Source of the DNA: Paenibacillus taiwanensis DSM 18679
Lineage (GTDB): Bacteria > Bacillota > Bacilli > Paenibacillales > Paenibacillaceae
DNA: 64,000 nt
NCBI RefSeq assembly: GCF_000425125.1
Contig: NZ_KE384306.1
Coordinates: 707,705-771,704 of the forward strand
Direction of reading: 5' to 3'
Notes under the pieces: model-generated
What the model was told of the DNA's origin: nothing
Database searches by the model: none
Seen by the model: the letters and a program-made list of their open reading frames with translations, nothing else
Shown: piece after piece, positions 37,035 through 61,228 of the stretch
Numbering within the stretch: the stretch's first letter is position 1
Layout of the letters: each line of letters starts with the position of its first letter
Position numbers and translations under genes: made by a program

Positions 37035-37068
37035 GGGGACGATAGATATACTATCGTCTCCTTTTTTT
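37035..37068. terminator. Rho-independent terminator between gpmA and the YneQ-like gene
   Basis: 11-bp stem GGGGACGATAG / CTATCGTCTCC with loop ATATA and a seven-base T-run. It ends gpmA-side transcription; the A-poor other side makes it weaker for the opposite strand. The 36866-37034 stretch holds nothing else recognisable. Confidence 0.82.
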
Positions 37069-37895: not shown

Positions 37896-40800
37896 ATGAG
37901 CCATACAGCTCATCTTACACCTGAACCAGTCGTTCTGCATGAGCTGACTCATCCGCAGAAACGTATTTGGTATATCGAAAACATTTATCCATCCATTCCG
38001 CTCCACAACATTGGAGGAACGATTCGCATTAAGGGTCGCGTTGACATGGATGTGCTTGAGACAGCGATCCGACACGTCATTTTGCAGCATGACGGTTTGC
38101 GGATTCGTCTTCGTGAGCTTAATAATGTCATATACCAATATGTGAGTGCAGCATGTGAAGAACGTTTACAGTTGGTAGATTTCACGGGCAGCAGCGATGC
38201 TGAAGCAGCTTATCGGCTGTGGCTATCAGAGCAAGCACGCACACCTTTTCAACTGCTGGAATCTCCACTGTACGATTTAAAATTGTTCCGAATTTCAGAC
38301 CATGATAGCGGATACTTGATTAAGCTGCATCATATTATCGCAGATGGCTGGTCCACGCAGATTATGACGGAGCAAATTTATAATCTATACAACAAGATCA
38401 GTCAAGGGGAATATATCGAATTAACGGCTGCTCCTTCCTATTTGGACGTCATTGATTCGGAACGCCATTATTTGCAATCAGAACGGTATAATAAGAATAG
38501 ACAGTTCTGGATTAATAAATTTACTCCGTTGCCTGATGTGAATATGTCCTACGGCACAGACCATATCGTAGGGACTAGGATTACCCACACCTTAGATGCG
38601 CTAACTTCAGCTCGCATGCAAAGTTTCACCGCCATACATAAGACCTCTCTAAATACTCAGTTTGTAATGTTATATCTACTCTTTATGTACAAGACAACCA
38701 ACCAGCAAGATCTAGTGATCGGAACGCCAGTGTTGAACCGCTCAGGACGCAAGGAGAAAAGCACAATCGGTATGTTTACGAGCACGATGCCGTTTGCTTA
38801 TCGGATAGACGGAAGTCTTTCTGCTTTAGACACGTTGCAGCAGATGGGCAAGCAGTTGATCGAATGTTATTTCCACCAAAAATACCCGTATGATTTACTT
38901 GTGCAGGACCTGGAGCTTAAACGACAGGGATTCGATCAGTTGTTCCACGTATGTGTTAATTATTACAACTCCAAGCACGTTAATGATTGGAACGGATGTC
39001 CCGTCGAAAATGAAGAATTCTACAATGGATTTCAATTATACGCCAAGCAGCTTGTGATCAAGGAATGGTCCGATACGGGATGTATAACGTTAGATGTTGA
39101 CTATAAACCGACTGAATATGATGAGCAATATATAAAAATGATGATTAGCGGCATGATGAATTTGTCAGAACAGATTATGGCTTATCCAGAACGGCCGCTT
39201 GATCAGCTTAGCCTGCTCTCAGAATCGCAGTATGAGCAGCAAATCATTCGGTTTAACGATACAAAAGTGTCTTATCCGGAACAAATGACGATTACAAGAC
39301 TGTTTGAAGAGCAGGTTGAACGAACACCGTATGCCATTGCCGCAAAATATAAGAGTGAGCAGTGCAGCTATCAGCAGTTAAATGAAAAGTCAAACCAATT
39401 AGCACGAGTGCTGCAAGGCAAAGGTGTACGCAGTGGATCGATCGTGGGATTGTATACGGAGCATGGACTAGAATCGATAATTGGCATATTTGCCATACTG
39501 AAAGCTGGTGGGGCTTACCTCCCCTTAGATCCTAAACATCCTGAAGAACGACTTGCCTATATGCTTGCAGACACCAATGCCTCTGTATTGCTGACGAATA
39601 CAGACCTACCAGCAGCTATAGCGTACTCAGGTGAAGTGATTGATCTTCGTCAGACATTCCTTTATCGCGGAGATGCGTCAAATTTAGCGGGCGGAAGTGG
39701 TCCATCAGATCTGGCCTATATTATTTACACCTCAGGCTCTACAGGGAAGCCGAAAGGCACGATGATAGAGCATCGGGGATTGGTCAATTATAGCTGGTGG
39801 GCCAAAGAAACGTATATGAAAAAGGAACGAGCCGTATTCCCTTTATATTCTTCACTGGCGTTTGACCTGACGATAACGTCTATCTTCACACCTTTAATTG
39901 GTGGAGGACTTATCACCATTTACCGTGATGACGAGGATGAGTTCGTGTTGTTTCGTATATTGGCAGACAATGAAGCAACAGTTATTAAGCTAACACCAGC
40001 CCACTTATCGTTGCTGCAAGATCGTCGATATCCGCACAGCTCGGTCAAACGATTTATTGTAGGCGGAGAGGACTTAAAGTCGTCACTTGCCTCGCAAATT
40101 GAGCATTGTTTTGATCACGAGATCGAAATTTACAATGAATATGGGCCAACGGAGACAGTAGTTGGTTGTATGATTTATCAGTACGATCGTACTGAAACCT
40201 CCTTGTCAGTTCCGATTGGTGTACCTGCGAACAATGTCATGATCTATATACTGGATGCTCAACTGAATCCTATGCCGTGTTATGGGATCGGGGAGCTTTA
40301 CATTTCAGGCCACGGCGTCGCCAGAGGATACTGGAACCAGCCGGAATTATCTGCAACCCGCTTTATCGACAACCCCTTCCATCCTGAATATCGGATGTAC
40401 CGGACTGGAGACCTCGCGTTCATGAGGGAAGATGGCTCGATTATTTATATGGGACGAGTGGACCATCAAGTAAAGATTAGAGGTTATCGGATTGAATTAG
40501 GCGAAATTGACCATGCCCTCACGCGTATAACAGCAATCAGGGAAGCTGTTGTAATGGATCGAAAGCACGATCAGGGAGCTGTATATTTATGTGCCTATTT
40601 TGTCAAGCAGGCATCCATAACCGAGCAACAAATCCGCATAGCTTTGAAGCAAAGCTTGCCAGATTATATGATTCCGGCTTATTTCGTTGAACTAGAGTCC
40701 ATTCCTTTAACGGCAAATGGAAAAGTAGATCGTAATAAGCTGCCTGAGCCTTTGACGGCCAAGATGACACTTGATGTGGTGGAGCGGAATATCCCGCGTG

Positions 40801-42422
40801 ATGGGATGGAAGCCGTGTTTATGGCTGCGGTTGAACAAGTGCTTAACCATTATAGCTTGACATGGCAAGACCATTTCTTTTATCAGGGTGGAGATTCCAT
40901 CAAAGCGATTCAACTGGCATCTAAGCTCAAAAACGCGGGCTATCAATTAAAGGTGAAGGATATTTTGTCCAATCCTTTGTTGATTGATATGGTGATGCAG
41001 GTCCGTCCATTACACGATGCAATTCAAATCGATCAGTCTCCCCGTTCAGGGACGATCGGGACAACACCAATCATAAGCTGGTTTCAAGAATTATCATTGC
41101 GGAATCCGAACCATTATACCCAATCAGTACTGCTGCAATTAAAGCAGGACATTAGTACAGAACGACTCACCGAACTGCTAAATATTTTATTGCATCATCA
41201 CGATTCCCTGCGCATTTATGTCAAAGCAGAGGATGAGCAATTAGCTTATATGGAACATACAGATGGAGCGCTTTCGATAGGGAAGACGGATCTGACGGGG
41301 TACTGTGCAGCAGAGCAGTTGCAAAGGCTAGCATCGACAGGCTACAAGCTCAAGTCGGAAATGGATATTCACCGTGGAGTGATGTTTAAAGCTCATCTGT
41401 TTGAACTGGGTCAACAAGGTACACGAATGTTGCTAATTGGTCACCATCTGGTTGTAGATGGGGTGTCATGGCGTATTTTGCTGGAGGATTTGGCCTTGTT
41501 GCTGGAGCAATCGGTGCTTGATCACGGAAAGTTACAGTTGCCAGACAAGACATCTTCTTATCAGGATTGGTCTAGTTATAAGGGGAAATTAGAGGGCGAA
41601 ACAAGCAAAGAACAAACATATTGGGAAGCCGTCATACAAGACCCGCCTGTTATTCCGGTTCAGCAATCAATGGGTGGAGCAATGCCGATGCTTGTAACTT
41701 CACAAACGTACCATCACGTATTTGACAAAAGTATAACCGCTAATCTTTTGAAAGATGCGAATAAAGCTTATCGAACAGAGACTAAGGATTTATTGATTAC
41801 AGCGTTAGCCTTGACTCTATTCCATAAATTCGAGCTTGATGAAGTAGTAATAGAGCTTGAGGGGCACGGTAGAGAGCTGGTAGACAGCAGTTTGGATTTG
41901 TCTAGAACAGTAGGGTGGTTTACTTCAATTTATCCTGTTCGGATTCAAAATCATGCAGGACCTATTACCCATAAAATTAAAACGATTAAAGAATTGCTGA
42001 GATCTATTCCCTATAACGGAATTGGATATGGGGTACTTCGGTATTATACAAAAACCTTAAAGGACACCCGACTTCAGGCTCCAATCCGATTTAATTACTT
42101 AGGGGATGTGGACACAAGCTTTAATAACGAGTGGTTCTGCATGGCACATGAGTCTTCAGGCTCAGAGAGTGACATACACAATGAAATGACAGCGTTACTG
42201 GATATACAGGCGATTGTAATTGATCAACAATTGCGTGTGGAATTGGCTTGCAGTCACTTGCACTTTAATGAAAGTGAAGGTAAAGAACTAGTTTCCATGT
42301 ATGTGCATGAGCTGATTCAAATCGTGAATCACTGTTGTGGCAAGACTGATCAGGACTATACGCCATCCGATTTTGATGCCGTCCAGATTACTCAGGATGA
42401 TTTGGACGAACTGTTTATTTAG
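37896..42422 (+). CDS. NRPS module 1: C-A-T-E, predicted D-Asn loading with N-acyl cap
   Basis: 1508 residues. Condensation domain (about 10-440) with active HHIIADGWS near 144; adenylation domain (455-960) with YTSGSTGKPKG near 609 and NEYGPTE near 749; carrier domain with FFYQGGDSIKAI near 997; epimerisation domain (1060-1490) with GHHLVVDGVSWR near 1182. Reading the ten pocket positions by alignment to GrsA gives D-L-T-K-I-G-E-V-G-K, nine of ten identical to the Asn code DLTKLGEVGK. A leading C domain plus Asn plus E is the layout of ClbN/XcnA/ZmaO-type modules that build N-acyl-D-Asn. ATG 37896 behind GGGGGAT is used, not the TTG at 37890. First gene of the operon. Confidence 0.93.
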   Translation: MSHTAHLTPEPVVLHELTHPQKRIWYIENIYPSIPLHNIGGTIRIKGRVDMDVLETAIRHVILQHDGLRIRLRELNNVIYQYVSAACEERLQLVDFTGSSDAEAAYRLWLSEQARTPFQLLESPLYDLKLFRISDHDSGYLIKLHHIIADGWSTQIMTEQIYNLYNKISQGEYIELTAAPSYLDVIDSERHYLQSERYNKNRQFWINKFTPLPDVNMSYGTDHIVGTRITHTLDALTSARMQSFTAIHKTSLNTQFVMLYLLFMYKTTNQQDLVIGTPVLNRSGRKEKSTIGMFTSTMPFAYRIDGSLSALDTLQQMGKQLIECYFHQKYPYDLLVQDLELKRQGFDQLFHVCVNYYNSKHVNDWNGCPVENEEFYNGFQLYAKQLVIKEWSDTGCITLDVDYKPTEYDEQYIKMMISGMMNLSEQIMAYPERPLDQLSLLSESQYEQQIIRFNDTKVSYPEQMTITRLFEEQVERTPYAIAAKYKSEQCSYQQLNEKSNQLARVLQGKGVRSGSIVGLYTEHGLESIIGIFAILKAGGAYLPLDPKHPEERLAYMLADTNASVLLTNTDLPAAIAYSGEVIDLRQTFLYRGDASNLAGGSGPSDLAYIIYTSGSTGKPKGTMIEHRGLVNYSWWAKETYMKKERAVFPLYSSLAFDLTITSIFTPLIGGGLITIYRDDEDEFVLFRILADNEATVIKLTPAHLSLLQDRRYPHSSVKRFIVGGEDLKSSLASQIEHCFDHEIEIYNEYGPTETVVGCMIYQYDRTETSLSVPIGVPANNVMIYILDAQLNPMPCYGIGELYISGHGVARGYWNQPELSATRFIDNPFHPEYRMYRTGDLAFMREDGSIIYMGRVDHQVKIRGYRIELGEIDHALTRITAIREAVVMDRKHDQGAVYLCAYFVKQASITEQQIRIALKQSLPDYMIPAYFVELESIPLTANGKVDRNKLPEPLTAKMTLDVVERNIPRDGMEAVFMAAVEQVLNHYSLTWQDHFFYQGGDSIKAIQLASKLKNAGYQLKVKDILSNPLLIDMVMQVRPLHDAIQIDQSPRSGTIGTTPIISWFQELSLRNPNHYTQSVLLQLKQDISTERLTELLNILLHHHDSLRIYVKAEDEQLAYMEHTDGALSIGKTDLTGYCAAEQLQRLASTGYKLKSEMDIHRGVMFKAHLFELGQQGTRMLLIGHHLVVDGVSWRILLEDLALLLEQSVLDHGKLQLPDKTSSYQDWSSYKGKLEGETSKEQTYWEAVIQDPPVIPVQQSMGGAMPMLVTSQTYHHVFDKSITANLLKDANKAYRTETKDLLITALALTLFHKFELDEVVIELEGHGRELVDSSLDLSRTVGWFTSIYPVRIQNHAGPITHKIKTIKELLRSIPYNGIGYGVLRYYTKTLKDTRLQAPIRFNYLGDVDTSFNNEWFCMAHESSGSESDIHNEMTALLDIQAIVIDQQLRVELACSHLHFNESEGKELVSMYVHELIQIVNHCCGKTDQDYTPSDFDAVQITQDDLDELFI

Positions 42423-42493
42423 AAACGATCTAGCATACAAACATGTTATTTCGATTAGAGAGAACAATCTATTAATGGAGGATGGGGGCTAAT

Positions 42494-43762
42494 ATGGCAA
42501 AAGTGCTCTATTTTAGCGTAGATCTTCATGGACACGTCAATCCGACATTGGGGTTGATTCATAAGTTGGTTGAATCTGGAGAGGAAGTTGTCTATTACGC
42601 CAGCACTCCGTTTCAGGAGAAGGTCGAGCAGACAGGGGCAAAGTTTCGAAGTTATGAGGGAACTGTTGGATTTGCTACACATGATGGGCATGGCATTGAT
42701 ACGTTTCTAGTATTTGCCGACTTTATTTTAAGTCGAACGGAGGCTGTGCTGGCACGTTTCTATGACGAGATTGCCGCTTGGAGGCCAGATTATATTATCC
42801 ATGATGCCTTTTGTTATTGGGGAAAAGTATGTGCAGAGCGTCTCGGTGTGCCTGCTATATCTTTATGTGCGAACTTTCCTTATATCGATGAAATGGCCGA
42901 CTTGGACCCGGACTTTTTTGTGGAACATGTGCTGAGGGCCTCCAATGACCCGTTATATCAGAAATTTAAAGGGAGCAGCCTCCTTTATCGTAAGCTGCTA
43001 GACAAAATGTCGATGCTTATCAGCAAAAAGTACGGCTTGATGCAGGTGAATGTCATTAATGACATTTTTTGCAGCAAGCAGCCGTTAAATCTTATTTTTT
43101 CATCGCGATTTTTCCAACTTCACGAAGAAGCGTTTGACGACAGTTACTTGTTTTTGGGGTACCCGATCTTCCCGCGTGCTGAAGCTGTAGACTTTCCATT
43201 TGATCGATTAGATGGCAGACCGTTAATCTACGTGGCATTTGGTACCATCTACAATCAGCTTGTAGATACGTACAAAGCGTGCTTTGAAGCTTTTGCACAT
43301 TCAGATTGCCAGGTCATTATGTCGGTAGGGCATCAAGTTGCTCTTGCCGAGCTTGGACAAATTCCAGACAACTTTATCGTTCGGCCATATGTCCCGCAAT
43401 TACAAATTTTAGAGCATGCGAACGTGTTTATTACGCACGGTGGAGCTAACAGTATATATGAAAGTATTGCCCATGGCGTGCCGATGGTCGTTGTCCCTCA
43501 AGTGTTCGACGAATTTATGGGAGCGATGATGGTGGAACGAGTTGGAGCAGGTCTGTATGTGACCGATCGTGAGCCGACTGCGGTTATGCTTCAACAAGCT
43601 GTAGAGCGGGTGCTTGGGGACGATTGCTATCGTACAAACTGTTTGGATGTAAAGCGAAAATTCGACGAGGCGGGGGGACTGACGACCGCAGTTGATCGGA
43701 TATTCGAGTACGTAAATCAGTTTTACGACAGTGAAGTCCATAATGGAGCGCTTATTCCATAA
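42494..43762 (+). CDS. MGT-type (GT1 family) glycosyltransferase
   Basis: 422 residues of the macrolide-glycosyltransferase/YjiC type. N-terminal acceptor half starts KVLYFSVDLHGHVNPTLGL with the catalytic-type His; the C-terminal half has PLIYVAFGTIYNQL and the NDP-sugar motif FITHGGANSIYESIAHGVPMVV followed by PQVFDEFMGA. It transfers a sugar, typically from UDP-glucose, to a small molecule in the cytoplasm. Inside this operon it either decorates the product or masks it while inside the cell as self-protection, as with known macrolide glycosyltransferases. ATG 42494 is preferred to the ATG at 42482, which overlaps the GGAGG ribosome site. Confidence 0.92.
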   Translation: MAKVLYFSVDLHGHVNPTLGLIHKLVESGEEVVYYASTPFQEKVEQTGAKFRSYEGTVGFATHDGHGIDTFLVFADFILSRTEAVLARFYDEIAAWRPDYIIHDAFCYWGKVCAERLGVPAISLCANFPYIDEMADLDPDFFVEHVLRASNDPLYQKFKGSSLLYRKLLDKMSMLISKKYGLMQVNVINDIFCSKQPLNLIFSSRFFQLHEEAFDDSYLFLGYPIFPRAEAVDFPFDRLDGRPLIYVAFGTIYNQLVDTYKACFEAFAHSDCQVIMSVGHQVALAELGQIPDNFIVRPYVPQLQILEHANVFITHGGANSIYESIAHGVPMVVVPQVFDEFMGAMMVERVGAGLYVTDREPTAVMLQQAVERVLGDDCYRTNCLDVKRKFDEAGGLTTAVDRIFEYVNQFYDSEVHNGALIP

Positions 43763-43789
43763 CCATTAAATCGTAAATGAGGGTCCGAT

Positions 43790-46700
43790 ATGATTCGACT
43801 AAAGCATTTTCCAATATTGGCTATTATTTATTGTTTACTCCTCCTGCCACTAGGATCAGTGTCGGCGGCTGATCTGTTCGCAGGTAAGGAAAAAGAGATT
43901 GAAGCCTATATTGAGCAGCAAATGTCCAAAGGGGACATACCTGGGGTATCCGTCGTTATTCTTCAGAATAATAAGCCAGTGTATACGAAAGGGTTTGGCT
44001 ATGCTGATCAATCAGCTTCTACACCTGTAACGTCGGATACGGTGTTTGAACTAGGCTCGACAAGTAAAGCTTTTACAGGAATTGCGCTGCTTCGTCTTGT
44101 GGAAGAAGGCAAGTTACGGTTGGAAGACACCGTAAATCAATATATTCCTACATTTAAAGTAACCTATGAAGGAAAACCAGTAGATATCTCGCTGTATCAG
44201 CTGCTTCATCACACAAGCGGCATTCCATTTGACACGATCGGAAACATACCGATTGCAGACGGAGACGATGCGCTTGCGCAGACGGTGAAAACGTTGGAAG
44301 GTATTGAATTGGATGATAGACCTGGGGAAGTGTATTCGTACGCCACGATTAACTATGATGTGCTCGGTTATATCATTCAACTCGTCACAGGTAACACCTA
44401 TGAGAAGTATGTAATTGAGCAAGTACTCAATCCGCTCGGACTACAGCATACGTACTTATTCCGAAACGACGTTCCTGCTGAACAGATGGCTAAAGGATAC
44501 AAGTTTAATCTGCTGAGAACCGTTGAATACGATGCACCTGTCTATAGGGGAAACACGCCAGCCGGATATGTCATGTCCAGTGCGAACGATATTGGCAAGT
44601 GGTTAAGTATTCAACTTGGTCAGAAAGAAGGCATTGCACCTACTTTTCCACAGCAAATTATCGAGAAATCGCATGCACCTGACCGGACTGTAATGCCAGG
44701 AGGGGATGGGTCTTCCTATGCCGCTGGCTGGACAATTCATCAACGAGGCAGCGGTGAAATTACACACGGGGGAGAGAACCCTAACTTTTCATCCGCCTTT
44801 TTATTTAGGCCGCAGGATGGAATTGGCGTAGGTGTCCTTGCCAACCTGAACTCTACGTATACGCAAACAATTGGACACGGGATCATGCAAATGCTGTTAG
44901 GCAAAGAGCTTCCCGATCCTGCGACAGACCAATATAAAAGTATGGACAACACCGCATCCGCTATTTTATTTATTGCGATTCCCGCAATGCTAATGATCAT
45001 CTGGTTCTCGGGTACGGCTATATGGGAAGCCGTGCGCGGCAAGCGGCGGTATGCAGGCAGTGGCAGCAAGCTGGCAGCAAATTTGCTTATTTCCTTACTG
45101 TTTATGTCTGGCTTCACGTACTGTTTGTACCGAATCCCGGATGTGATTTATGGCGGATTATCGTGGGATTTTGTGCAGGTGTGGGCTCCGCAGAGCTTTA
45201 TTACTGCAATCATTTTGCTCTTTTTTGCGGTGCTGCTGTTTAATTTTTATTTCATTTGGACCACGTTATTTCCTAAGAAAAATGATCGCTCGATGTTTAC
45301 CTTGACGCTGCTAAGCATTGCGAGTGGGTTCGGAAACGCACTTATCATTTTTATCGTTAATGAAACGCTTAATCGCGATGACGGCTTTCAGGGGGGGCTT
45401 CTGCTCTACTTTGCAGTGGGGATTGCAATCTACGTCGTTGGTCAGAAGCTGGTGCGGACCAGATTAATTTACATCGCAAATGATATGGTTTACGAAAAAA
45501 GGGCAGAGCTAATCGATAAAATTTTGGATACTCCTTACCAGCGGGTCGAAGGTTTAGAGGACGGATCGATTCAGGCTGCGCTTAACAATGACACGGAAAC
45601 GATTAGTGAATTTTCCGGCATTGTCATTACTGGGGCGACTAGCTTTGTTACGTTAATCTGCTGTTTTGTATATATGGGAATTATTAGCGTGTACGGTTTG
45701 GTCGTATCAGTTGCCTTTATTTTTATTGCCGCAGGGTTACACTTTGCGATTGGTCGTCAGGCTAACAAGCTGTGGGAACAAACAAGAGACATTCAAAATG
45801 TATTTTTTAAGTTTATAAATGACTTGATTACCGGCTTTAAAGAACTGAGCTTGCATAATGGCAAAAAGCAGGACTTTAAGACGGATATGCAAGCTAGCTG
45901 CAACACATATCGGGAGAAACGGATTCAAGGTGGACTGAAGTTTGCCAACGTCAACGTTATCGGAGAATTGTTGTTTACGTTAGTCATTGGGGCTGTCGCA
46001 TTTTTGTTTCCACTATTATTTACAGATCTTAAAGTGAACGCATTAAGAAACTATGTCTTTGTCCTGTTATATATGACAGGTCCTGTTCATGGTATTTTAG
46101 GCACGATTCCGAATATTTTCCGTGTTCGGATCAGTTGGAATCGGATTAGTGAGTTATCTAAGCAATTGGATGAATATCGGGCGCAACAGCAGCTGCAAGT
46201 GGATCATACGTCAACCGGTACGAAGGTGGAGGCGCAGAAGCTTGATGTACAATTGCGAGCAGTGGAGTATCAGTATGACAACAAGGAAGGGGATACCTTT
46301 ACGGTAGGGCCGATTCATTTTTCCTTCCGTGGGGGAGAAATTACGTTTATTACCGGGGGCAATGGAAGTGGCAAGTCAACACTTGCCAAGCTGATTACGG
46401 GCCTCTATACACCAACAAAGGGCGAAGTGTTTATTAACGGGCAAATCGTTGACAGTCTGACGCTTGGCCAGCAATATGCGGCCATTTTTAGCGATTTTCA
46501 TCTGTTTGAGAAATTATACGGCATCGAAACCGAACATAAACAAGCAGAAATTCAAACTTACCTCCGTACACTGCATTTACAGGACAAAGTAAATATTGAA
46601 GACGGGAAGCTGAATACGATCAAGCTGTCAACCGGTCAGCGTAAGCGCTTGGCGCTGCTCATCAGTTATTTAGAAGACAGGCCAATTTATTTGTTTGATG

Positions 46701-46930
46701 AATGGGCGGCAGACCAAGATCCGGAATTCCGTGCCTTTTTCTACAACACGTTGCTGCCAGAGCTTCGGCAGCGGGGGAAATGTATAATTGCGATCACACA
46801 TGATGATCGATTTTTCGAACTGGCGGATCATATCATTAAAATGGATATGGGCCAGATTGTACATCAGGAAGCAGGGCGTTTGTCTGAGATTGCAGCAACT
46901 GCTAGTTATGCGGACAAAACAACGCTGTAA
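43790..46930 (+). CDS. Fused serine peptidase (beta-lactamase S12 fold) and ABC exporter, prodrug-activating type
   Basis: 1046 residues. Signal/anchor segment (5-27); S12 peptidase domain outside the membrane (30-370) with SxxK as Ser90-Thr-Ser-Lys93 and catalytic Tyr184 in YSYATINYD (Asn of the usual YxN is Thr); membrane segments at about 390-540; ABC membrane domain (540-790) resembling SyrD/YojI cyclic-peptide exporters (FINDLITGFKELSLHNGKKQDF in part); ATPase with Walker A GGNGSGKST near 855, signature LSTGQRKRL near 946 and Walker B IYLFDEWAADQD near 965. ClbP and XcnG cut acyl-D-Asn from prodrugs; peptidase-ABC fusions of this type are known from zwittermicin-like clusters. It should cleave and export the product. 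Confidence 0.92.
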   Translation: MIRLKHFPILAIIYCLLLLPLGSVSAADLFAGKEKEIEAYIEQQMSKGDIPGVSVVILQNNKPVYTKGFGYADQSASTPVTSDTVFELGSTSKAFTGIALLRLVEEGKLRLEDTVNQYIPTFKVTYEGKPVDISLYQLLHHTSGIPFDTIGNIPIADGDDALAQTVKTLEGIELDDRPGEVYSYATINYDVLGYIIQLVTGNTYEKYVIEQVLNPLGLQHTYLFRNDVPAEQMAKGYKFNLLRTVEYDAPVYRGNTPAGYVMSSANDIGKWLSIQLGQKEGIAPTFPQQIIEKSHAPDRTVMPGGDGSSYAAGWTIHQRGSGEITHGGENPNFSSAFLFRPQDGIGVGVLANLNSTYTQTIGHGIMQMLLGKELPDPATDQYKSMDNTASAILFIAIPAMLMIIWFSGTAIWEAVRGKRRYAGSGSKLAANLLISLLFMSGFTYCLYRIPDVIYGGLSWDFVQVWAPQSFITAIILLFFAVLLFNFYFIWTTLFPKKNDRSMFTLTLLSIASGFGNALIIFIVNETLNRDDGFQGGLLLYFAVGIAIYVVGQKLVRTRLIYIANDMVYEKRAELIDKILDTPYQRVEGLEDGSIQAALNNDTETISEFSGIVITGATSFVTLICCFVYMGIISVYGLVVSVAFIFIAAGLHFAIGRQANKLWEQTRDIQNVFFKFINDLITGFKELSLHNGKKQDFKTDMQASCNTYREKRIQGGLKFANVNVIGELLFTLVIGAVAFLFPLLFTDLKVNALRNYVFVLLYMTGPVHGILGTIPNIFRVRISWNRISELSKQLDEYRAQQQLQVDHTSTGTKVEAQKLDVQLRAVEYQYDNKEGDTFTVGPIHFSFRGGEITFITGGNGSGKSTLAKLITGLYTPTKGEVFINGQIVDSLTLGQQYAAIFSDFHLFEKLYGIETEHKQAEIQTYLRTLHLQDKVNIEDGKLNTIKLSTGQRKRLALLISYLEDRPIYLFDEWAADQDPEFRAFFYNTLLPELRQRGKCIIAITHDDRFFELADHIIKMDMGQIVHQEAGRLSEIAATASYADKTTL

Positions 46931-46963
46931 GCCGTTTATAGAGCACAATGGAACACGGAGAGG

Positions 46964-50779: not shown

Positions 50780-50815
50780 ATAAATGTGTGCTTGAAAAAG
50801 AAGGAGGTGGGATTG

Positions 50816-53800: not shown

Positions 53801-54928
53801 TCACGTGACAACGTAAGCCGTACCCTTGCTGTCTTACAAGAAATAGAGCGATTAGGCTCTACCATATCATGTATACAAGCGGATATTACAAACGAAGCGC
53901 ATATTCAGTCCATACTGGGCGATATTCGATCGCAGTATGGCTTTATTACAGGTGTTATTCATGCGGCAGGCATTGCCGAGGGAGACATAAGCGGTCGCTT
54001 GACACAGGATCATTTCGAAAAAGTGATGGCAGCAAAAGTACAGGGAACATGGGTGCTGAATCAAGTGCTGCGAGATGAAGACTTGGAATTTTTGGCGTTA
54101 TTCTCCTCCGCTATTACGCTTGTCGGGGGCATGGGCTCTGGGCCGTACACAGCTGCCAATGCTTATCTGGATGCTGTTGCCGCATGCCGTTCATTGCTGC
54201 AAGGGAAACGGACGCTTGTGTTAAATTGGCCTGCATGGGACAACACAGGGTTATCTGAAAACGCAGACGTTGATGAAAGCAAAGAACTGTTTAACGTACT
54301 GCCTGTACAAAAAGGAGTCGAAGCGTTTGATGACGCCTTAAAGCATAATGTGACACAAATGTATGTCGGTCCATTAAATGTAGATTCCGCTCTATTTCAG
54401 CTAAGGGATAAGCTTCCATTCCGCATGACAGAACGTGTGCAAGCACAGCTGGAGCAGCGGGCTGGCGCGATAGCGGACAAGCAGCATGATAGAGGGGGAA
54501 GTACCTCTGCTGCACGCGCCAAACTAAGTTATATTGCCCTTAAAGGGAAGGCGAACAGCGATTATACAGACATCGAGCGCCGCATTGCGGAAGCTTGGCG
54601 GCACATTTTAGGGTATGAGGAGCTGGACATTCATGCTAACTTTTTTGAAATTGGCGGCGACTCCATATTGGTTACTAAAGTACACGCGTTAGTTGAAGCT
54701 CAATATCCGGGTGTGGTGTCCATATCCGATATGTTTTCCTACGCCACTATTGCCAAGCTGGCACAATATGTGAGCCAAGGCCTACAAGCTTCGGCGCCAG
54801 TTCCAATGGAAGAGGAAGATCCGTTTGAGGCTGAGGTGTATGCATGGTTTGATCATATCGAAGCAGGAACGTTGACAATTACGGAAGCTGTTGAGCGTTA
54901 CCGTTTAATGGAGGTGGCTCGCATATGA
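50816..54928 (+). CDS. AT-less polyketide synthase: KS-KR-ACP
   Basis: 1370 residues. Ketosynthase (about 35-460) with intact Cys in DTTCSSSLVA near 202 and His residues in HGTGTKLGDPIE near 335 and SNIGHLDSAAG near 373. No acyltransferase: a linker of the trans-AT kind (LCYTLQTGRGEYQHRLAIV, then APAYPFEGKRCWL) follows. Ketoreductase (about 640-1200) with TGGLGGIG near 901 and the Ser/Tyr pair in LFSSAITLVGGMGSGPYTAANAYLD; between them sits a low-complexity His/Ser/Thr-rich loop (about 940-1005). ACP with FFEIGGDSILVTKV near 1281. Start TTG 50816, eight bases after AAGGAGGTGG; earlier in-frame GTG 50786 lacks one. It would add a two-carbon unit and reduce it to the hydroxyl. Confidence 0.91.
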   Translation: MDFSSITLKNSLFEESAAAPDPFHDDGDEAYDIAIIGIGLKLPLADTVEQYWHNLREGKDCVRDLPEARRKDTDRYFNHIGKDPKTINYGAAAYVEGIDQFDFGYFKLSPKEAALMDPNQRLFLQTAWQAIEDAGYGGAMLKGSNTGVYLGYGSDGDYKQMISQVEPDAYSMSMPGNVRPMIASRIAYLLDLKGPNMTVDTTCSSSLVAIHLACQALRNGECDLAIAGGIQLHLIPVRDFEVGVESSTSRTQALDDSADGTGTGEGSVAILLKPLRQAREDRDAIYAVIKSSAVNQDGTSVGITAPNAQAQEQVLAEAWSRAHIHPESIGYIEIHGTGTKLGDPIEMDGIRRAFQRYTNKAQFCAVSGVKSNIGHLDSAAGVAGLVKAVLSLKYKELFPTLHFSRPNRKISFEDSPVYVNDKLREWISNPAEKRRCGVSSFGISGTNCHIVLEESQPANRSQSTEVNSAPLFQSEKKNNIFVLSALTREALQQSVEKFIYYLDVETDISLTDLCYTLQTGRGEYQHRLAIVTANHKQLKSTLLRIQQEGLQQGHVDYYYYDAGPDSDSDRKELSLAGNRALLSYMESDPQACYQVAEKYTHGAEIQWNTLYRRGRPHRLHAPAYPFEGKRCWLNLTEYDPHTTTLLDHNRYYHTIWQAQPLSMDDSVQMGRVTTLIFKSEDKADAGVKDKLRQSGTPVIEVDYADCYEQVSRDGFRIQDNEADYDKLLQQLKDRNVRRIVFICAAQETTVPATLTDLQNRLEKSVYRLHRMIKAIVRQERNDALELTIMTRRGASVVDGQMLTAIAGLPDPVLPEHASLFGFSKAIGWEYPYIHIRCLDMDLETDIGCCIQEIHKPAAEYVTAYRRGIRYVERLDKLDLPDVNKPLHSNLPVIKPHGVYVITGGLGGIGLQMARYLASQQPVQIILLNRSPFPERTQWNTLLQLQATHHEPHQEHLTEPNDHFLINCSADASPTDTHSSAHQSALESVPQIEGERSRDNVSRTLAVLQEIERLGSTISCIQADITNEAHIQSILGDIRSQYGFITGVIHAAGIAEGDISGRLTQDHFEKVMAAKVQGTWVLNQVLRDEDLEFLALFSSAITLVGGMGSGPYTAANAYLDAVAACRSLLQGKRTLVLNWPAWDNTGLSENADVDESKELFNVLPVQKGVEAFDDALKHNVTQMYVGPLNVDSALFQLRDKLPFRMTERVQAQLEQRAGAIADKQHDRGGSTSAARAKLSYIALKGKANSDYTDIERRIAEAWRHILGYEELDIHANFFEIGGDSILVTKVHALVEAQYPGVVSISDMFSYATIAKLAQYVSQGLQASAPVPMEEEDPFEAEVYAWFDHIEAGTLTITEAVERYRLMEVARI

Positions 54929-57900
54929 AAGCTGCCCAAATCATATTTGAACAAGTGGCTGCCGGAAAAATGGATCGAGCGACAGGACTTCAAGTTCTGA
55001 AAGCACTCAAGCTGCAGCAACAATCATCAGGCGTAAAGGATATTGCCGTCATTGGAGTAGGGCTGGACATGCCTCATGCGAACACATTAGAGCAGTTTTG
55101 GGCTAATATTCGCGATGGTCAACAATTTGTCAGACCGTTGCCACTTGATCGGCAGCGGGATACACGACCGTTTATTACACAATTTACGAGCCTTAGGGAA
55201 CATGAAATTACATTTAGTCAAGGCGGCTATTTGGATCAAATCGATCAGTTTGATTACGGATTTTTTAACTTGTCACCCAAGGAAGCGGCATTGATGGACC
55301 CAAATCAGCGACTGTTTCTGGAAACTGCCTGGAAAACGATCGAGGACGCAGGGTATGGCGGCAATCGGCTAAAAGGCAGTCGGACCGGGGTATACCTCGG
55401 TTATGCAGATTGGCCGGTATACGGTCAATATATTTCAAAGCGGCAGCCAACATTGGTAGATATGGCTAGTGTTGGTAATACGCCTTCTTTAATCGCAAGC
55501 CGAATTTCTTATTTGCTTGATTTTAAAGGACCAGCCTTTCTGGTAGATACGGCTTGTTCTTCTTCTCTGGTAGCTGTACATCTTGCATGTATGGCTTTGC
55601 GAAATGGGGATTGTGATCAAGCGCTTGCCGGAGGGGTGAAGGTATGTCTCCTGCCAGTGGACGATGTATTTGCGATTGGAATCGAATCGTCCAATGCTAG
55701 AACGAGCACTTTTGACGACAGTTCGGACGGTACTGTCTGGGGAGAAGGGACAGCAGCATTGCTGTTGAAGCCATTGGAGCGGGCTGTTGCGGATCGGGAT
55801 CGTATTTATGCGGTCATTAAGGGCAGCGCAGTTAATCAGGATGGAGCATCAGCAGGTATTACGGCGCCAAATGCGCAGGCGCAGGAACAACTGCTGCTGC
55901 AAGCGTGGAAAGATGCGGATGTCCCGCCAGATTCGATTTCTTACATCGAAGCACATGGCACGGGCACGAAGCTTGGGGATCCGATCGAAATAGACGGTAT
56001 AAAGCGTGCTTTTAGACAGCGCACAAGCAAGCAGCAATTTTGTGCGGTAGGCTCGGTCAAAACGAATGTAGGCCATCTGGACAGCGCTTCTGGAATAGTC
56101 GGGCTCGTGAAAGCAATTGCTGCGCTTCAATATAAGCAGCTGCCGCCGACACTGCATTTTACGAGACCTAATCGCAAAATTGCATTTGAAAGTTCGCCAG
56201 TTTATGTGAATGACCAACTACGGAACTGGGAAGGCAGAGGTACCCCGCTAAGATGCGGAGTAAGTTCCTTTGGCTTTAGCGGAACGAACTGCCATGTCGT
56301 GTTAGAGGAACCGCCTACTAAGCAGCCTTCATTTGCGGTGGAGCGAGTCGATACGCAACCTAAGCGAGAGCGGGCAGTGTTGTGCTTATCAGCAAAAAGC
56401 GAATCAGGAGTAAAGCAGCTAGTGAATGAGTATGCCACATTTTTGCGCCATTCAATAGCAGATTTACGATCAATTTGTTATACAGCCAATACGGGTAGAG
56501 GGCATTACGGACATCGATTAGCTTTAACCGCGTACGACAAGGAGGAACTTTGTCAGAAGCTGACTCAGCTTCAACAAACAGGCCTTACCTCGGTTCCAAC
56601 GATGGACGGTGTGTATTATGGTGAGCACCGGCTTCGCAATGTACAGCGAGGAGAAATCCAAGTAGGGGCGTTAACAAGTGAACAACTAATAGCTAAAAAC
56701 GAGCAGGGGCGGGAGCGGATTCAACAGATGATGGCCCGTACAACATCGTATGCAGACGGACTGGATGAGATATGCCGTCTTTATACGGAAGGTGCCGACA
56801 TTGAGTGGCAGCTGCTTGATATGGATGAGGAGATAGGTACGGTCAGCGTACCAACCTATCCGTTTCAGCGCTCACGCTGTTGGTTGGAACTTGCAGATGA
56901 ATATACATCCGAGCATTACCAGGCGCTACAAGGAGGTGATCAGAACTCGATTGAGATTGGTGAGTGTAATCCTGTTCGAACGGATGAAGCGGCAGTCGTG
57001 GATACGACTTCGTCATCCAATATAGTTGTGAAACTAACGGGCAGGGACAGTAGGCAATACAACGAGACAGAGCAAACAATTGCGAATGTATGGGGAATGC
57101 TGCTTGGGCTATCCGAAATTAACGTCTACGATTCGTTTTTTGAGCTAGGTGGAAACTCCATCCAAGCTATTCGAATGGAGGTTGAGTTGGAGCGGCAGCA
57201 TGTCACAATCAGCTCCGATGATCTGTATCGATTCAGCTCGATCACAGAGCTCGCGGCTAACGTAATCGGTTCAAGTCGTGAGATAGCTTTAAATGAGAGA
57301 CAAGAGCTGCCGATCGCTACACTAGCAGTCGCTCAGACAGAAGCTGCCGCGACTGCTGCAACGATGTCGCAAGCCGAAGCAACAGTTGTGAGATTAACCG
57401 AAGCTGAGTCAGACAGGACTGCGATACAGGTGATCATCCCTGCGATCGAGCCCTTTAACGACGTGTTCTACAAAAATTGCTTCTTTAATTCGGTATTTCC
57501 AGTCGTGCGGCATTTTGGTCAAGACCCACTGTGCATCATGCTGAATGATCTCATTCTGTATGAATATGATCAGAAGGATGAACGTGGGCAGCAAGCTGCA
57601 AGTTTGGACAGAGGGTATCGCATCCGCTACGACGAGCAATATCCGATGCAGCAAATGTTTCAACAATTAAATATGAAGGTCGATATACGAGCAGATTCAA
57701 GTAACATTGTGGCAGAGCTGATCGAGGCTATTTCGCACGGCAGCCCTGTAGTGGTTTGGGTAGATGCTTACTACGAATCGATTCGCAAAGATACTTTTGA
57801 AAAGGAACATCTGGACCATACGTTACTCGTATACGGTTATAACAAAGAGGAACAGATATTCCATGTAATAGAGCATGACCGACGAGAAAACTTGTCGTAC

Positions 57901-58446
57901 AAATCATGCGTTTTACCTTTTGCAGACTTGGAGCAAGGACACGTTGGCTTTAGAGAACGATATTTGTATCGTGGACATGAAGCGACCCATTACATTTTTA
58001 GCGCTGCGCCTGCTCCCTTGACAATTCTGGAAAAAGTCTTCCGGCTCGATAACGCTTATGAAGCATTGCTGAATGGACGCACACATTTGTTGGAACAAAG
58101 TGTGCAGGCGTTAACCCGTTATATCGAATCTTTCCGACGCTGGACATCTGATGAGGAGCAACTCAAGCTCCATCTGGAGGATACGATTGCCTTTTGTAAT
58201 GAGGTGATTAACGCCAAGCACGTAGAGAGCTATCGCATAAGGCAGCTATACGGGCTGGAGAGTGATACGTTACAGTCCATTAATCGCATCATTAAAAAAT
58301 GGGATGAAGTACGTAAAGGTGTCGTTCGTTATTTGTACCTGCCTGTCTATAAGCCAGAAGTGTTCGAAGCCTGCTGCGTCAGGTTGCAAGAAGTTGTAGA
58401 AGAAGAGCAACGCTTGGCCCAGTTACTGCTTACACCTTGCAATTAA
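54925..58446 (+). CDS. AT-less polyketide synthase with chain-releasing domain: KS-ACP-BtrH-like
   Basis: 1173 residues, overlapping the previous gene by four bases (ATGA). Ketosynthase (about 35-455) with intact Cys in DTACSSSLVAVHLA near 211 and His in HGTGTKLGDPIE near 344 and TNVGHLDSASG near 381. A trans-AT type linker follows (ICYTANTGRGHYGHRLAL, PTYPFQRSRCWLEL), then ACP with SFFELGGNSIQAIRM near 743. The last 340 residues read as a BtrH_N-like domain: NCFFNSVFPVVRHFG (possible Cys nucleophile), SPVVVWVDAYYES and HLDHTLLVYGYN (possible His). BtrH moves an acyl group from a carrier protein to an amine in butirosin synthesis. No thioesterase occurs in the operon, so this domain probably releases the chain. 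Confidence 0.88.
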   Translation: MKAAQIIFEQVAAGKMDRATGLQVLKALKLQQQSSGVKDIAVIGVGLDMPHANTLEQFWANIRDGQQFVRPLPLDRQRDTRPFITQFTSLREHEITFSQGGYLDQIDQFDYGFFNLSPKEAALMDPNQRLFLETAWKTIEDAGYGGNRLKGSRTGVYLGYADWPVYGQYISKRQPTLVDMASVGNTPSLIASRISYLLDFKGPAFLVDTACSSSLVAVHLACMALRNGDCDQALAGGVKVCLLPVDDVFAIGIESSNARTSTFDDSSDGTVWGEGTAALLLKPLERAVADRDRIYAVIKGSAVNQDGASAGITAPNAQAQEQLLLQAWKDADVPPDSISYIEAHGTGTKLGDPIEIDGIKRAFRQRTSKQQFCAVGSVKTNVGHLDSASGIVGLVKAIAALQYKQLPPTLHFTRPNRKIAFESSPVYVNDQLRNWEGRGTPLRCGVSSFGFSGTNCHVVLEEPPTKQPSFAVERVDTQPKRERAVLCLSAKSESGVKQLVNEYATFLRHSIADLRSICYTANTGRGHYGHRLALTAYDKEELCQKLTQLQQTGLTSVPTMDGVYYGEHRLRNVQRGEIQVGALTSEQLIAKNEQGRERIQQMMARTTSYADGLDEICRLYTEGADIEWQLLDMDEEIGTVSVPTYPFQRSRCWLELADEYTSEHYQALQGGDQNSIEIGECNPVRTDEAAVVDTTSSSNIVVKLTGRDSRQYNETEQTIANVWGMLLGLSEINVYDSFFELGGNSIQAIRMEVELERQHVTISSDDLYRFSSITELAANVIGSSREIALNERQELPIATLAVAQTEAAATAATMSQAEATVVRLTEAESDRTAIQVIIPAIEPFNDVFYKNCFFNSVFPVVRHFGQDPLCIMLNDLILYEYDQKDERGQQAASLDRGYRIRYDEQYPMQQMFQQLNMKVDIRADSSNIVAELIEAISHGSPVVVWVDAYYESIRKDTFEKEHLDHTLLVYGYNKEEQIFHVIEHDRRENLSYKSCVLPFADLEQGHVGFRERYLYRGHEATHYIFSAAPAPLTILEKVFRLDNAYEALLNGRTHLLEQSVQALTRYIESFRRWTSDEEQLKLHLEDTIAFCNEVINAKHVESYRIRQLYGLESDTLQSINRIIKKWDEVRKGVVRYLYLPVYKPEVFEACCVRLQEVVEEEQRLAQLLLTPCN

Positions 58447-58487
58447 ATATATAATCTATCATTCACACATTTTAGGAGGAATTTACA

Positions 58488-58757
58488 ATGACAATCGAAC
58501 TTCAAAACGACTTGCGGGCACGTGTAATTGAAATGCTGAAAGACAATGTAGATGATAGTGATGCGTTAGACCAGCTTGGCCCAGACGATGAATTGACCGT
58601 GCTAGGCATCAACTCGGTTACCTTTATTAAATTGGTCATTGCTGCGGAAATGGAGTTTGGTGTGACTTGGAAAGATGAAGATTTGGATTTCCGTAACTTT
58701 ATGACGATTAACAGCATTATGAATTATATTATCGCTTCGGATGACGAGAACGAGTAA
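58488..58757 (+). CDS. Free-standing acyl carrier protein
   Basis: 89 residues, acidic, of the four-helix carrier-protein fold. The phosphopantetheine site is Ser43 in LGINSVTFIKLV (usual GxDS appears as GINS). Strong ribosome site TAGGAGGAATTTACA. It follows the KS-ACP-BtrH gene by 41 bases and precedes a radical SAM gene by 71. A discrete ACP beside a radical SAM enzyme and BtrH-like proteins recalls the butirosin BtrI/BtrN/BtrH set, in which a side chain is built on a separate carrier; what is carried here is unknown. Confidence 0.9.
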   Translation: MTIELQNDLRARVIEMLKDNVDDSDALDQLGPDDELTVLGINSVTFIKLVIAAEMEFGVTWKDEDLDFRNFMTINSIMNYIIASDDENE

Positions 58758-58828
58758 ACCTGCATCAAATTGCCTGTTGACCCTGCAATACACCCCTATA
58801 TATAGAAGATGAAGGCGAGGAAACTATA

Positions 58829-59971
58829 ATGTTAACGGAAGCTATAGGTTTAAGAGATGAAGCACTTGAGGACTATGTTCGTAATTTAACACCAGAGATT
58901 AAACAATTAACACTTTTCCCCTCTGAGATGTGTAATTATCGTTGCAGCTTCTGCCATATTTGGGGAGAGACTGGCTGGGCATTAAAAGAGCCGCAGCGTG
59001 TCATTCGTGAACAGCTTGACATAAACGTGTTAAAAGGGTTCATCGATCAGGTTACGGCGGACAACAAGAAGCTAGGTGTCATTATTACGGGTGGCGAACC
59101 GATGTTGTACAAGCATTTAAACGAGCTAGTCGAACATTTACGCAGCAAAAAGGCCAACATTTATTTGTTAACGAATGGTTCATTAATGAAGAAGCAGATC
59201 CCGTTTATTATGAAAAACATTGTAGCTATGAATATTTCTCTGGACGGCCCTGAAGAGTTTCACGATTCCATTCGAGGCAAAGGCAGTTTCAACACGGTTT
59301 GTGAAAACGTAGAAATGTTAATTCAAGAGAAAAAGCGTCATAACAAAATGTTCCCGTTTATCAACATTACGATGGTGTTGTCCAAGTACAACTACAAGAG
59401 TACCAAAAACTTTATGCAAGCGCTCAGAGACCGCTTCAAGGACGCCAACATTGTCCTGCATGATACCAAAACACCTTGGACAAAGCGCCGCGACATGTCG
59501 GTGAACTTCGCTCCACTGTTGTTTACATCACAAGAACGTGGATTAAAGTATGCAGAGCAAATGAAAGAGCATTTGGATTGCAACGTATCTCCTGCTTGGC
59601 AGGGTTTTGTTGAAGAAGATATCGGCATCGATACCCAATTGTTAAAACGCGATATGGAAGAAATATGGCGCTCAGAGGGAGTCGATTCCTCGCAGTATAT
59701 CGATATTCATGAATATTTTACTGACATTGATAACGTATTTGGCCATACGAAATGTGTTGCACCGTGGCACGAACTTGTAATTCGTCGTACTGGGGATGTT
59801 TATCCTTGTGTTGATTTCCCAGACTATAAATATGGAAATATTTATGAAAATACGTTCCAAGAAATGTGGGAAGGGGAACGTGCTGTAAAATTCCGTAATT
59901 ATATGAGAAATGACAATTTATTAGTTTGTAATCGCTGTGTTCGTATGTTTGCAGATAAAGATTCTTTCTAA
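58829..59971 (+). CDS. Radical SAM enzyme with SPASM domain
   Basis: 380 residues. The radical SAM cluster motif CNYRCSFC (Cys35, Cys39, Cys42) comes first, with the GGEP-type loop ITGGEPMLYKH near 92 and NGSLMKK near 122. The C-terminal SPASM region (about 300-375) has CVAPWHELVIRRTGDVYPCVDFPDY and CNRCVRMF, giving enough Cys for one or two extra [4Fe-4S] clusters. Such enzymes act on peptides or on carrier-bound or sugar substrates (oxidation, epimerisation, cross-linking). Between the ACP and a BtrH-like gene, an ACP-bound or glycosylated intermediate is the likely substrate; butirosin BtrN is a functional precedent for dehydrogenation. No RiPP precursor peptide was seen nearby. Confidence 0.92.
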   Translation: MLTEAIGLRDEALEDYVRNLTPEIKQLTLFPSEMCNYRCSFCHIWGETGWALKEPQRVIREQLDINVLKGFIDQVTADNKKLGVIITGGEPMLYKHLNELVEHLRSKKANIYLLTNGSLMKKQIPFIMKNIVAMNISLDGPEEFHDSIRGKGSFNTVCENVEMLIQEKKRHNKMFPFINITMVLSKYNYKSTKNFMQALRDRFKDANIVLHDTKTPWTKRRDMSVNFAPLLFTSQERGLKYAEQMKEHLDCNVSPAWQGFVEEDIGIDTQLLKRDMEEIWRSEGVDSSQYIDIHEYFTDIDNVFGHTKCVAPWHELVIRRTGDVYPCVDFPDYKYGNIYENTFQEMWEGERAVKFRNYMRNDNLLVCNRCVRMFADKDSF

Positions 59972-60046
59972 TTCATTTCAGTTTTTAAATCTTTTCATTC
60001 ATTTTAATGACCTGATATACAACTCAGATGAGAAATGAGGAATTCC

Positions 60047-61153
60047 ATGCGGGAGAACATATTACCTTTTAGCCAGCCACAATTGTATGGTTTTCTGGGC
60101 CATGCCTATGTACTCGGTGCCCTGCAAGATGACGAGCGCTGTATGGATTGGTTTTATACTAACTATGTTCAGCTTCATATAACGCAGCAGTACATCGAGC
60201 TAGGTGAGTATCGATTGGATTTTTATCCGGACCTGTTAATCATTTTTGGTAACGTGCCTTGGCTGGATTATCATCGAACAGATAAAGAGATGCTGACTCG
60301 AATGAATATTAACATCCGTGATTTTATTATCGATCATATTAATCGGGGCTTTTACTTTTTCTCTTATATCGATGAATTTTATATTCCAAACACGTTATGT
60401 TATCAGTTCCGCCATATGACCCATGATCTGCTAGTGTCAGGGTACAACCTGGACAAGCAAACGTATACGGTTGCGGGCTTTAACAAGGATCGGGCCTTTA
60501 GCATCCGAGAAATCAGTTTTGAAGAGTTTGAGACTGCCTATAACAGTCCAACAACACACAACTATATTAGTATGTTCCGCAAAGCTGACAATTATGAACA
60601 AACCAAGTATGACTTGAAAAACGGATTGTTTGATTTTGACCTGGGCGTGATGATGGAATCATTAACAGAGTACCTCCACGGTATTAACTCATCCCGACGG
60701 ATGGGATTATATCGAAACTTGGAGCCAGGCGTTTATGGGATGAAGGTGTATGAGGCGTTGCAGCATTATTTCAAATTGCTTGCAGAAGAGAAGATTGCTT
60801 TGGATGTTCGTCCTTTGCATTTACTTTGGGAGCACAAAAAATTTATGGTGCAGCGGATTCGTTATTTGCAGCAGCATGGGTATTTAAATGCCGACAGTTC
60901 GACACTTCAGGGATATGAAAAGATGGAGCGTATAGCACTAAAGCTTAGAAATTTGTTGTTAAAATATTTTTTTACAACGCTGCCAGCTTTGCTGGACAAA
61001 ATAGATGTTGGTCTTGCGGAACTGCACACGACTGAAAAAATCGTGCTAAATCAGTTGCTCGACGAGCTCTGTGTCCATAACAGCATCGAGCGCACTGCTC
61101 TTGATAAAAGGGTCGTAACCGTATATACAAGTGAGCCTGCATCTATCTCATAA
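60047..61153 (+). CDS. BtrH-like protein, possible acyltransferase or papain-fold remnant
   Basis: 368 residues. The middle part parallels the BtrH-like domain of the second PKS: GFYFFSYIDEFYIPNTLCYQFRHMTHDLLVSGYN aligns with VVVWVDAYYES...HLDHTLLVYGYN, keeping the His and YGYN/SGYN motif. The N-terminal position where the PKS-linked copy has a Cys (NCFFNS) appears here as GFLGHAYVLG, so the presumed nucleophile is missing and it may bind rather than catalyse, or use another residue. The rest is helical. ATG 60047 is preferred (GAGG six bases before) over ATG 60035. It is the last gene before the operon terminator. Family call is moderate. Confidence 0.7.
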   Translation: MRENILPFSQPQLYGFLGHAYVLGALQDDERCMDWFYTNYVQLHITQQYIELGEYRLDFYPDLLIIFGNVPWLDYHRTDKEMLTRMNINIRDFIIDHINRGFYFFSYIDEFYIPNTLCYQFRHMTHDLLVSGYNLDKQTYTVAGFNKDRAFSIREISFEEFETAYNSPTTHNYISMFRKADNYEQTKYDLKNGLFDFDLGVMMESLTEYLHGINSSRRMGLYRNLEPGVYGMKVYEALQHYFKLLAEEKIALDVRPLHLLWEHKKFMVQRIRYLQQHGYLNADSSTLQGYEKMERIALKLRNLLLKYFFTTLPALLDKIDVGLAELHTTEKIVLNQLLDELCVHNSIERTALDKRVVTVYTSEPASIS

Positions 61154-61159
61154 ATAAGT

Positions 61160-61199
61160 AGAGCAGACCTTCCAATATGATGGAATGGTCTGCTCTTTT
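61160..61199 (+). terminator. Strong terminator closing the NRPS/PKS operon
   Basis: AGAGCAGACC-TTCCA pairs with TGGAA-TGGTCTGCTCT (one bulge, six-base loop) and ends in TTTT. It is the first clear terminator after the operon start at 37896. Confidence 0.85.
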
Positions 61200-61228
61200 A
61201 ATTGAAGCTTATTAATATTAAGTTCTAA

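Follow-up and report, generated by a model that had tools for sequence, protein, structure and literature searches.

A recurrent compact NRPS-PKS operon of Paenibacillales, predicted to make an N-acyl-D-asparagine prodrug and, in P. taiwanensis, probably to borrow a stand-alone acyltransferase

The closest described systems are those of zwittermicin, edeine and paenilamicin, which use peptidase-exporters of the ZmaM type. The operon described here shares with them a non-ribosomal peptide synthetase (NRPS) starter module with condensation (C), predicted asparagine-specific adenylation (A), thiolation (T) and epimerization (E) domains, a fusion of an S12 peptidase with an ABC half-exporter, and the residues for D-Asn recognition. 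It lies in a stretch of 64,000 nucleotides of Paenibacillus taiwanensis DSM 18679 (contig NZ_KE384306.1; G000:C1:707705-771704 in our numbering of the 5.25 Mb genome), hereafter called the window. Judged by the anatomies described for the known systems, the operon differs from them in having only two ketide extensions, a polyketide synthase (PKS) free of acyltransferase (AT) domains, a C-terminal BtrH domain, a radical S-adenosylmethionine (SAM) enzyme, a discrete acyl carrier protein (ACP) and an MGT glycosyltransferase. We propose, with a probability of roughly 0.58, that it encodes a short trans-AT NRPS-PKS assembly line following the N-acyl-D-asparagine prodrug plan, probably supplied by an AT from a stand-alone locus, the amide product of which would be unmasked on export.

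The operon comprises nine genes, all on the same strand and with open frames, separated by gaps of at most 71 bases (Table 1). Searches with Pfam and NCBIfam gave for genes 1 to 8, in order, C-A-T-E; an MGT glycosyltransferase; an S12 peptidase joined to an ABC exporter of the cyclic-peptide type; C-A-T; ketosynthase (KS)-ketoreductase (KR)-ACP; KS-ACP-BtrH_N; ACP; and radical SAM with SPASM. The ninth protein (ORF9) matched neither library and was found to be BtrH-like by profile comparison (hhalign) and by fold. An earlier note, made from the sequence alone, had described nine collinear genes closed by a terminator and the same series of domains. Gene coordinates, the folding energy of the terminator and the family searches bear this out, and NRPS2, which it gave as C-A-T, has those domains plus a partial C domain at its end. 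Pattern scans found terminator-like sites not in excess of shuffled sequence (3 versus 5.6, and 12 versus 15.2); the site upstream of the operon is one of three from a scan without such excess, and the end terminator was missed by the pattern scan, probably because of a bulge in its stem. An Rfam scan of the window returned zero matches.

Conservation excludes an arrangement by chance, since 19 further genomes contain this gene set. When 392 genomes of the order were searched with the radical SAM protein, 20 fell in a tight clade, the genome of the window included; the other 19 members show 65-98% identity, and the next matches about 33%. Among the GTDB species genomes scanned, 25 loci were found; apart from two of Cohnella, one of Chengkuizengella and one of an uncultured, metagenome-assembled member of the Paenibacillaceae, they belong to Paenibacillus, the nearest relative being Paenibacillus sp. 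ACRRX (98% in the radical SAM protein). The two sets overlap and hold several identical contigs, so that the counts are not additive. Within the genus, 8 of 16 genomes searched carry the radical SAM gene, our own included, and in a class-wide sample of 398 genomes our own alone held a member of the clade (E up to 1e-70). Neighbourhoods of up to 60 kb around the 19 relatives showed an identical gene order wherever the contigs cover the operon; in three relatives the two PKS genes form a single open frame. Since one contig (G047) begins inside the operon, counts for the upstream genes are out of 19, window included. The ratio of nonsynonymous to synonymous substitutions (dN/dS) between the window and ACRRX, obtained with a simple Nei-Gojobori script, was 0.013-0.152 for the operon genes. 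Taken together, the operon represents a conserved and apparently uncharacterised family, found here only in Paenibacillales.

The prodrug plan is carried by NRPS1 and the peptidase-exporter. The code of the first A domain (A1), DLTKIGEVG, which we take to be the classical Asn code, is invariant in 19 of 19 operons (code positions of the A domains were placed by eye from the standard motifs), and the same 19 keep the E domain motifs HHxxxD and E[GS]HGR. The peptidase aligned to full-length ClbP (7mdc/7ul6) with an E value of 4e-69. Determinants of the prodrug peptidase in ClbP are S95, K98, Y186, S188, H257, N331, E92 and W466, and prodrug peptidases have Ser or Thr at position 188 and His or Asn at 257 (available part of PMC9889268). 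In ClbP numbering, the window peptidase carries E92, S95, K98, Y186, T188, N257, N331, F462 and W466; the first seven are identical in all 19 operons, and F462 and W466 were checked in the window. At the level of sequence, these residues are strong evidence of D-Asn recognition. The operon combines a starter module read as C-A(Asn)-T-E with an S12 peptidase having SxxK, Y186, Ser or Thr at 188, N331 and the membrane residue W466. Among the 5000 best-scoring records of a plasmid collection, none covers 80% of the peptidase-exporter query, and the 15 matches listed concern the ABC half only, so that they make no link to a zwittermicin record. Genomic regions for unidentified prodrug products are mentioned in the available part of PMC9889268. 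The MGT glycosyltransferase possibly provides a second self-protection or a tailoring step. In three relatives (G007, G012, G015), a second MGT-type glycosyltransferase gene, 54-55% identical to that of the operon, lies about 2 kb upstream of NRPS1 on the opposite strand.

The code of the second A domain (A2) reads D[QVH]E[ST][IL]G[TS]VC over 19 of 19 operons, with two acidic positions facing a basic side chain. The predicted substrate is basic and probably Lys, with Arg and Orn as the alternatives. The partial C domain at the end of NRPS2 has weak matches in the PDB to the second lobes of C and E domains (best E 4e-4) and is possibly a docking element. In all 20 operons, KS1 and KS2 each carry the active-site Cys together with the first His motif, and the KR of the window retains its nucleotide motif and the S-Y-N motif.

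The KS modules of the window have no integrated AT and, judged by this domain content, the PKS part appears to be a trans-AT system. Several solved relatives of KS1 are labelled AT-less, and PksL and PksJ, which we take to be trans-AT, are also among them, but so are relatives with AT in cis, CurL for example. The KS tree comprised 19 KSs and drew on 6 out of 20 members of the family and on 7 further KSs of the same genome; in it the operon KSs lie with those of a second NRPS-PKS (G000:C3:331843-374635), apart from a cis-AT KS and three KSs of contig C2. This second NRPS-PKS contains three KS modules, and no AT was found on contig C3. For the gene clusters of the AT and of the accessory genes, one member each was scanned against the family libraries; accordingly, one of 18 operon ATs was identified as a FabD-like acyltransferase (Pfam, NCBIfam) and the others by similarity. 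This AT gene, of about 430 residues, lies between NRPS2 and PKS1 in 18 of 20 operons, those of P. agilis and P. aquistagni among them, and has a counterpart in 24 of the 25 GTDB loci. Among the operons examined it is absent from the window and ACRRX only. Its presence in 18 of 20 compared operons shows that the absence is a loss of the window's lineage.

An intact stand-alone AT is encoded about 115 kb from the operon (C1:629491-630861) and is 46-50% identical to the operon ATs of its genus. It is preceded by broken C and A pieces, and followed by a weak trace of KS and dehydratase (DH), the DH part scoring below the Pfam cut-off, and then by an intact phosphopantetheinyl transferase (PPTase) and an intact type II thioesterase; the whole decayed NRPS-PKS region spans G000:C1:628000-633010 (L127:8063-13009). 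ACRRX shows synteny over this stretch and likewise has decayed C and A pieces. Between the two strains, dN/dS was 0.077 for the stand-alone AT, 0.107 for the PPTase and 0.091 for the type II thioesterase, values similar to those of the operon genes and indicative of purifying selection. These ratios and the intact frames indicate that the three genes were retained while the adjoining synthases decayed. The missing malonyl-transferase is probably, from these sequence data, the AT kept with the PPTase and the thioesterase at G000:C1:629.5-633.0 kb. The three proteins would serve the AT-free lines of the genome, namely the operon of the window and the NRPS-PKS on C3. A more elaborate history can be put forward only tentatively: a larger trans-AT NRPS-PKS would have decayed except for its general-purpose enzymes acting in trans, the AT, PPTase and type II thioesterase, which remained as a stand-alone depot and then made the operon AT dispensable, and the operon would end in a new release station composed of a Cys-bearing BtrH domain on the PKS, its Cys-less homologue, the discrete ACP and a dedicated enzyme of the radical SAM type. 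Relocation of the operon's own AT as the origin of the stand-alone AT was also considered, because the A-domain piece before the latter best matches A2 among the domains of the window (44% over 77 residues). This idea was rejected: the AT tree gives it no support, and the weak DH trace points to another, larger cluster.

The BtrH domain of PKS2 has a papain-like fold with an invariant Cys and His, as in carrier-protein enzymes of the CcbD/CtaG type; comparison of sequence profiles of this domain with the PDB gave nothing credible, and the match came from the fold search only. CcbD (celesticetin), CtaG (closthioamide) and AziU2/U3 (azinomycin) are papain-like carrier-protein enzymes with only 8-14% identity to it, whereas here the domain is fused to KS-ACP and accompanied by a stand-alone homologue without the Cys. 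CcbD and CtaG take the chain off as an amide. Inspection by eye found no Cys near the place of the nucleophile in 14 of 14 ORF9 sequences, and ORF9 seems to be a Cys-less relative of the BtrH domain. It occurs in 14 of 20 operons. In at least five of the remaining six, a gene of another cluster lies nearby, and one member of that cluster is a BtrH_N protein. Genes resembling ORF9 are not confined to the operon, with matches, frequently more than one, in 28 of 60 relatives. One such gene (C3:330536-331675) adjoins the NRPS-PKS on C3.

The radical SAM enzyme has Cys at positions 35, 39, 42 and at 309, 327, 367 and 370, invariant in 20 of 20 operons and in the arrangement of a twitch/SPASM enzyme; its dN/dS to ACRRX, 0.013, is the lowest in the operon. 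Its C-terminal part matches BtrN (E 7e-5). The four-Cys auxiliary-cluster pattern at the C-terminus is common to the twitch enzymes of the BtrN type, from which the operon enzyme is set apart by the separate clade described above. In Paenibacillus curdlanolyticus (L147:10001-16147), the radical SAM gene continues within one open frame that totals 2049 residues; Pfam gave no match for roughly the final 1670 of them.

These elements suggest the following pathway. NRPS1 would acylate Asn and convert it to the D form, and NRPS2 would add a basic residue, probably Lys. PKS1 would then extend the chain with malonate and reduce it, and PKS2 would extend it once more without reduction, malonyl groups being probably supplied by the stand-alone AT outside the operon. 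Should the substrate of A2 be Lys, the last ACP would bear acyl-D-Asn-NH-(6,10-diamino-5-hydroxy-3-oxodecanoyl). Together with the discrete ACP and the Cys-less BtrH protein, the radical SAM enzyme may form a station for tailoring on the carrier or for loading of the acceptor. By the precedent of CcbD and CtaG, the Cys-bearing BtrH domain would release the chain as an amide, and the outer peptidase domain of the exporter would cut off acyl-D-Asn, leaving a free C6 amine; the glycosyltransferase may protect the producer or decorate the product. The product is thus probably an antibiotic-like amine, predicted to be made masked and unmasked on export. The interpretation given in the earlier note is supported in part. 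The invariant A1 code, the E domain motifs and the D-Asn-recognition residues of ClbP support its N-acyl-D-Asn plan, the two KSs with active-site motifs and the single KR its C4 polyketide with one hydroxyl, and the acidic A2 code, as sole support, its Lys-like second residue. Its "AT-less PKS" is right for the window and does not extend to the family, and the fold and the invariant Cys and His support its BtrH-type release onto a putative acceptor amine.

Table 1. Features of the operon and its borders, in positions of the window.
Feature	Position	Strand	Basis or remark
Terminator-like site in the interval between the upstream gene and the operon	37035..37061	+	Pattern scan: 11-pair stem, then T-run
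NRPS1, C-A(Asn)-T-E, predicted N-acyl-D-Asn maker	37896..42422	+	Pfam; E domain by TIGR01720
MGT-family glycosyltransferase	42482..43762	+	TIGR01426, 326 bits (cut-off 260); 19/20 operons, the remaining contig begins downstream of the gene
ZmaM/PamJ-like fusion of ClbP-like S12 peptidase and ABC half-exporter	43790..46930	+	PF00144, TIGR01194
NRPS2, C-A(basic, Lys-like)-T plus partial C domain	46964..50779	+	Pfam; code DQESIGTVC
Partial condensation domain (second lobe) at NRPS2 end	50150..50776	+	Alignment; counterpart in 19/19, poorly conserved
PKS1, KS-KR-ACP, without AT	50786..54928	+	Pfam; KS and KR motifs of the window protein
PKS2, KS-ACP-BtrH, without AT or KR	54925..58446	+	Pfam; KS motifs
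BtrH domain of PKS2, papain-like, predicted amide-forming release	57325..58443	+	Invariant Cys52 and His165 (stretch numbering)
Discrete ACP	58488..58757	+	PF00550; in 20/20 operons
Radical SAM enzyme, CX3CX2C and four C-terminal Cys (twitch-like)	58829..59971	+	PF04055/PF13186
Stand-alone BtrH-like protein (ORF9), apparently without nucleophilic Cys	60035..61153	+	
Strong terminator at operon end	61155..61205	+	Fold -24.6 kcal/mol, z -7.0

Some relatives have extra genes, a SagB-like oxidase in 4 genomes and a MupA-type flavin monooxygenase in 5; both lie inside the operon of one branch (L086:3111-4592 and L067:13770-14864; G388, Paenibacillus kobensis).

Several observations weigh against the proposed prodrug line and its borrowed AT. 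The stand-alone AT was not grouped with the operon ATs, in an unresolved tree where it sits on a long branch. The genome also encodes tandem ATs and a second Sfp-type PPTase on C2 and, given these ATs and the AT-free NRPS-PKS on C3, the stand-alone AT may serve other lines, or be replaced by theirs; the C2 cluster adjoins the tandem ATs, and its KSs group with the cis-AT KS rather than with the KSs of the operon. On the assembly line itself, two NRPS1 proteins (G114 and G039) have a degenerate HHxxxDG motif in the first C domain (HPMVADA and HSIITDR), so that acylation may differ there, and the second His motif, found in 20 of 20 KS2 domains, is found in 18 of 20 KS1 domains, with no pattern match in G010 and G002. 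The assignment of Lys to A2 depends on a code family taken to denote Lys. ClbP K235 is not conserved at the aligned position of the window peptidase. Finally, the placement of the Cys position in ORF9 is unsure: the hhalign match begins after the nucleophile region and the model is uncertain at residues 1-31.

One alternative, which we consider unlikely, is that the operon is a shortened, AT-stripped relative of the paenilamicin/galantin systems, with a product in which a C10 diamino acid resembling galantinamic acid is linked to a polyamine. Lys plus two malonates would give the C10 skeleton of galantinamic acid, and the decanoyl chain predicted above is presumably close to this part of paenilamicin. 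Furthermore, the paenilamicin line (pam) of Paenibacillus larvae begins in a similar way, with modules for D-Asn and for Lys/Arg, ketide extension after the latter, and the peptidase-exporter PamJ (available parts of PMC4234257 and PMC9054821). The pam PKS modules, however, each carry AT in cis and a KR, and pam has predicted N-methylation domains and five NRPS genes (available part of PMC4234257), whereas the operon line appears to be trans-AT and is far shorter: the domain search found in it no cis-AT module, no N-methylation and no later NRPS modules. The available parts of both sources name no BtrH or radical SAM partner for pam, which was compared by description.

It is equally doubtful that the operon makes a reactive imine of the colibactin kind. 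In colibactin, the freed amine attacks a ketone to give a five-membered cyclic imine. The order of acyl-D-Asn, amino acid, reduced ketide and unreduced ketide positions amine and ketone for the closure of such a ring, and the pocket for D-Asn is retained as in ClbP; by analogy, the C6 amine set free by cleavage, gamma to the unreduced ketone, could attack C3 and close the chain to a 1-pyrroline. However, the operon was found to have neither a module that forms an aminocyclopropane nor a second half, and the radical SAM enzyme may alter the ketone before the chain is released.

That the loss of the AT ended product formation, leaving a dead or dying cluster, is improbable: the operon AT is missing only in the window and ACRRX among those examined and a separate NRPS-PKS has decayed in both strains, but all nine frames are open, dN/dS of the operon is low between these two AT-less strains, the checked motifs of the window proteins are intact and an intact AT is retained elsewhere in the genome under purifying selection.

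The open-licence literature on prodrugs, trans-AT systems, BtrH and radical SAM enzymes in Paenibacillus held, in the parts available, no recognisable description of the cluster and no assigned product, and the whole gene set found no match to a characterised cluster in open-licence paper texts and the plasmid collection. Trans-AT PKS families without any reported representative occur, Paenibacillus included (available part of PMC7930024).

The operon is thus a recurrent compact line of the prodrug type, present in 25 GTDB genomes and without an assigned product in the open-licence literature searched. Two points are unusual, the probably outsourced acyltransferase and the BtrH pair with its radical SAM enzyme. 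At 23 kb the operon is compact enough to be expressed as a whole, and it offers a system for finding out what a pair of Cys-bearing and Cys-less BtrH proteins does. It further lends itself to asking, in a natural setting, if an assembly line is able to give up its acyltransferase and rely on one left over from a dead cluster.

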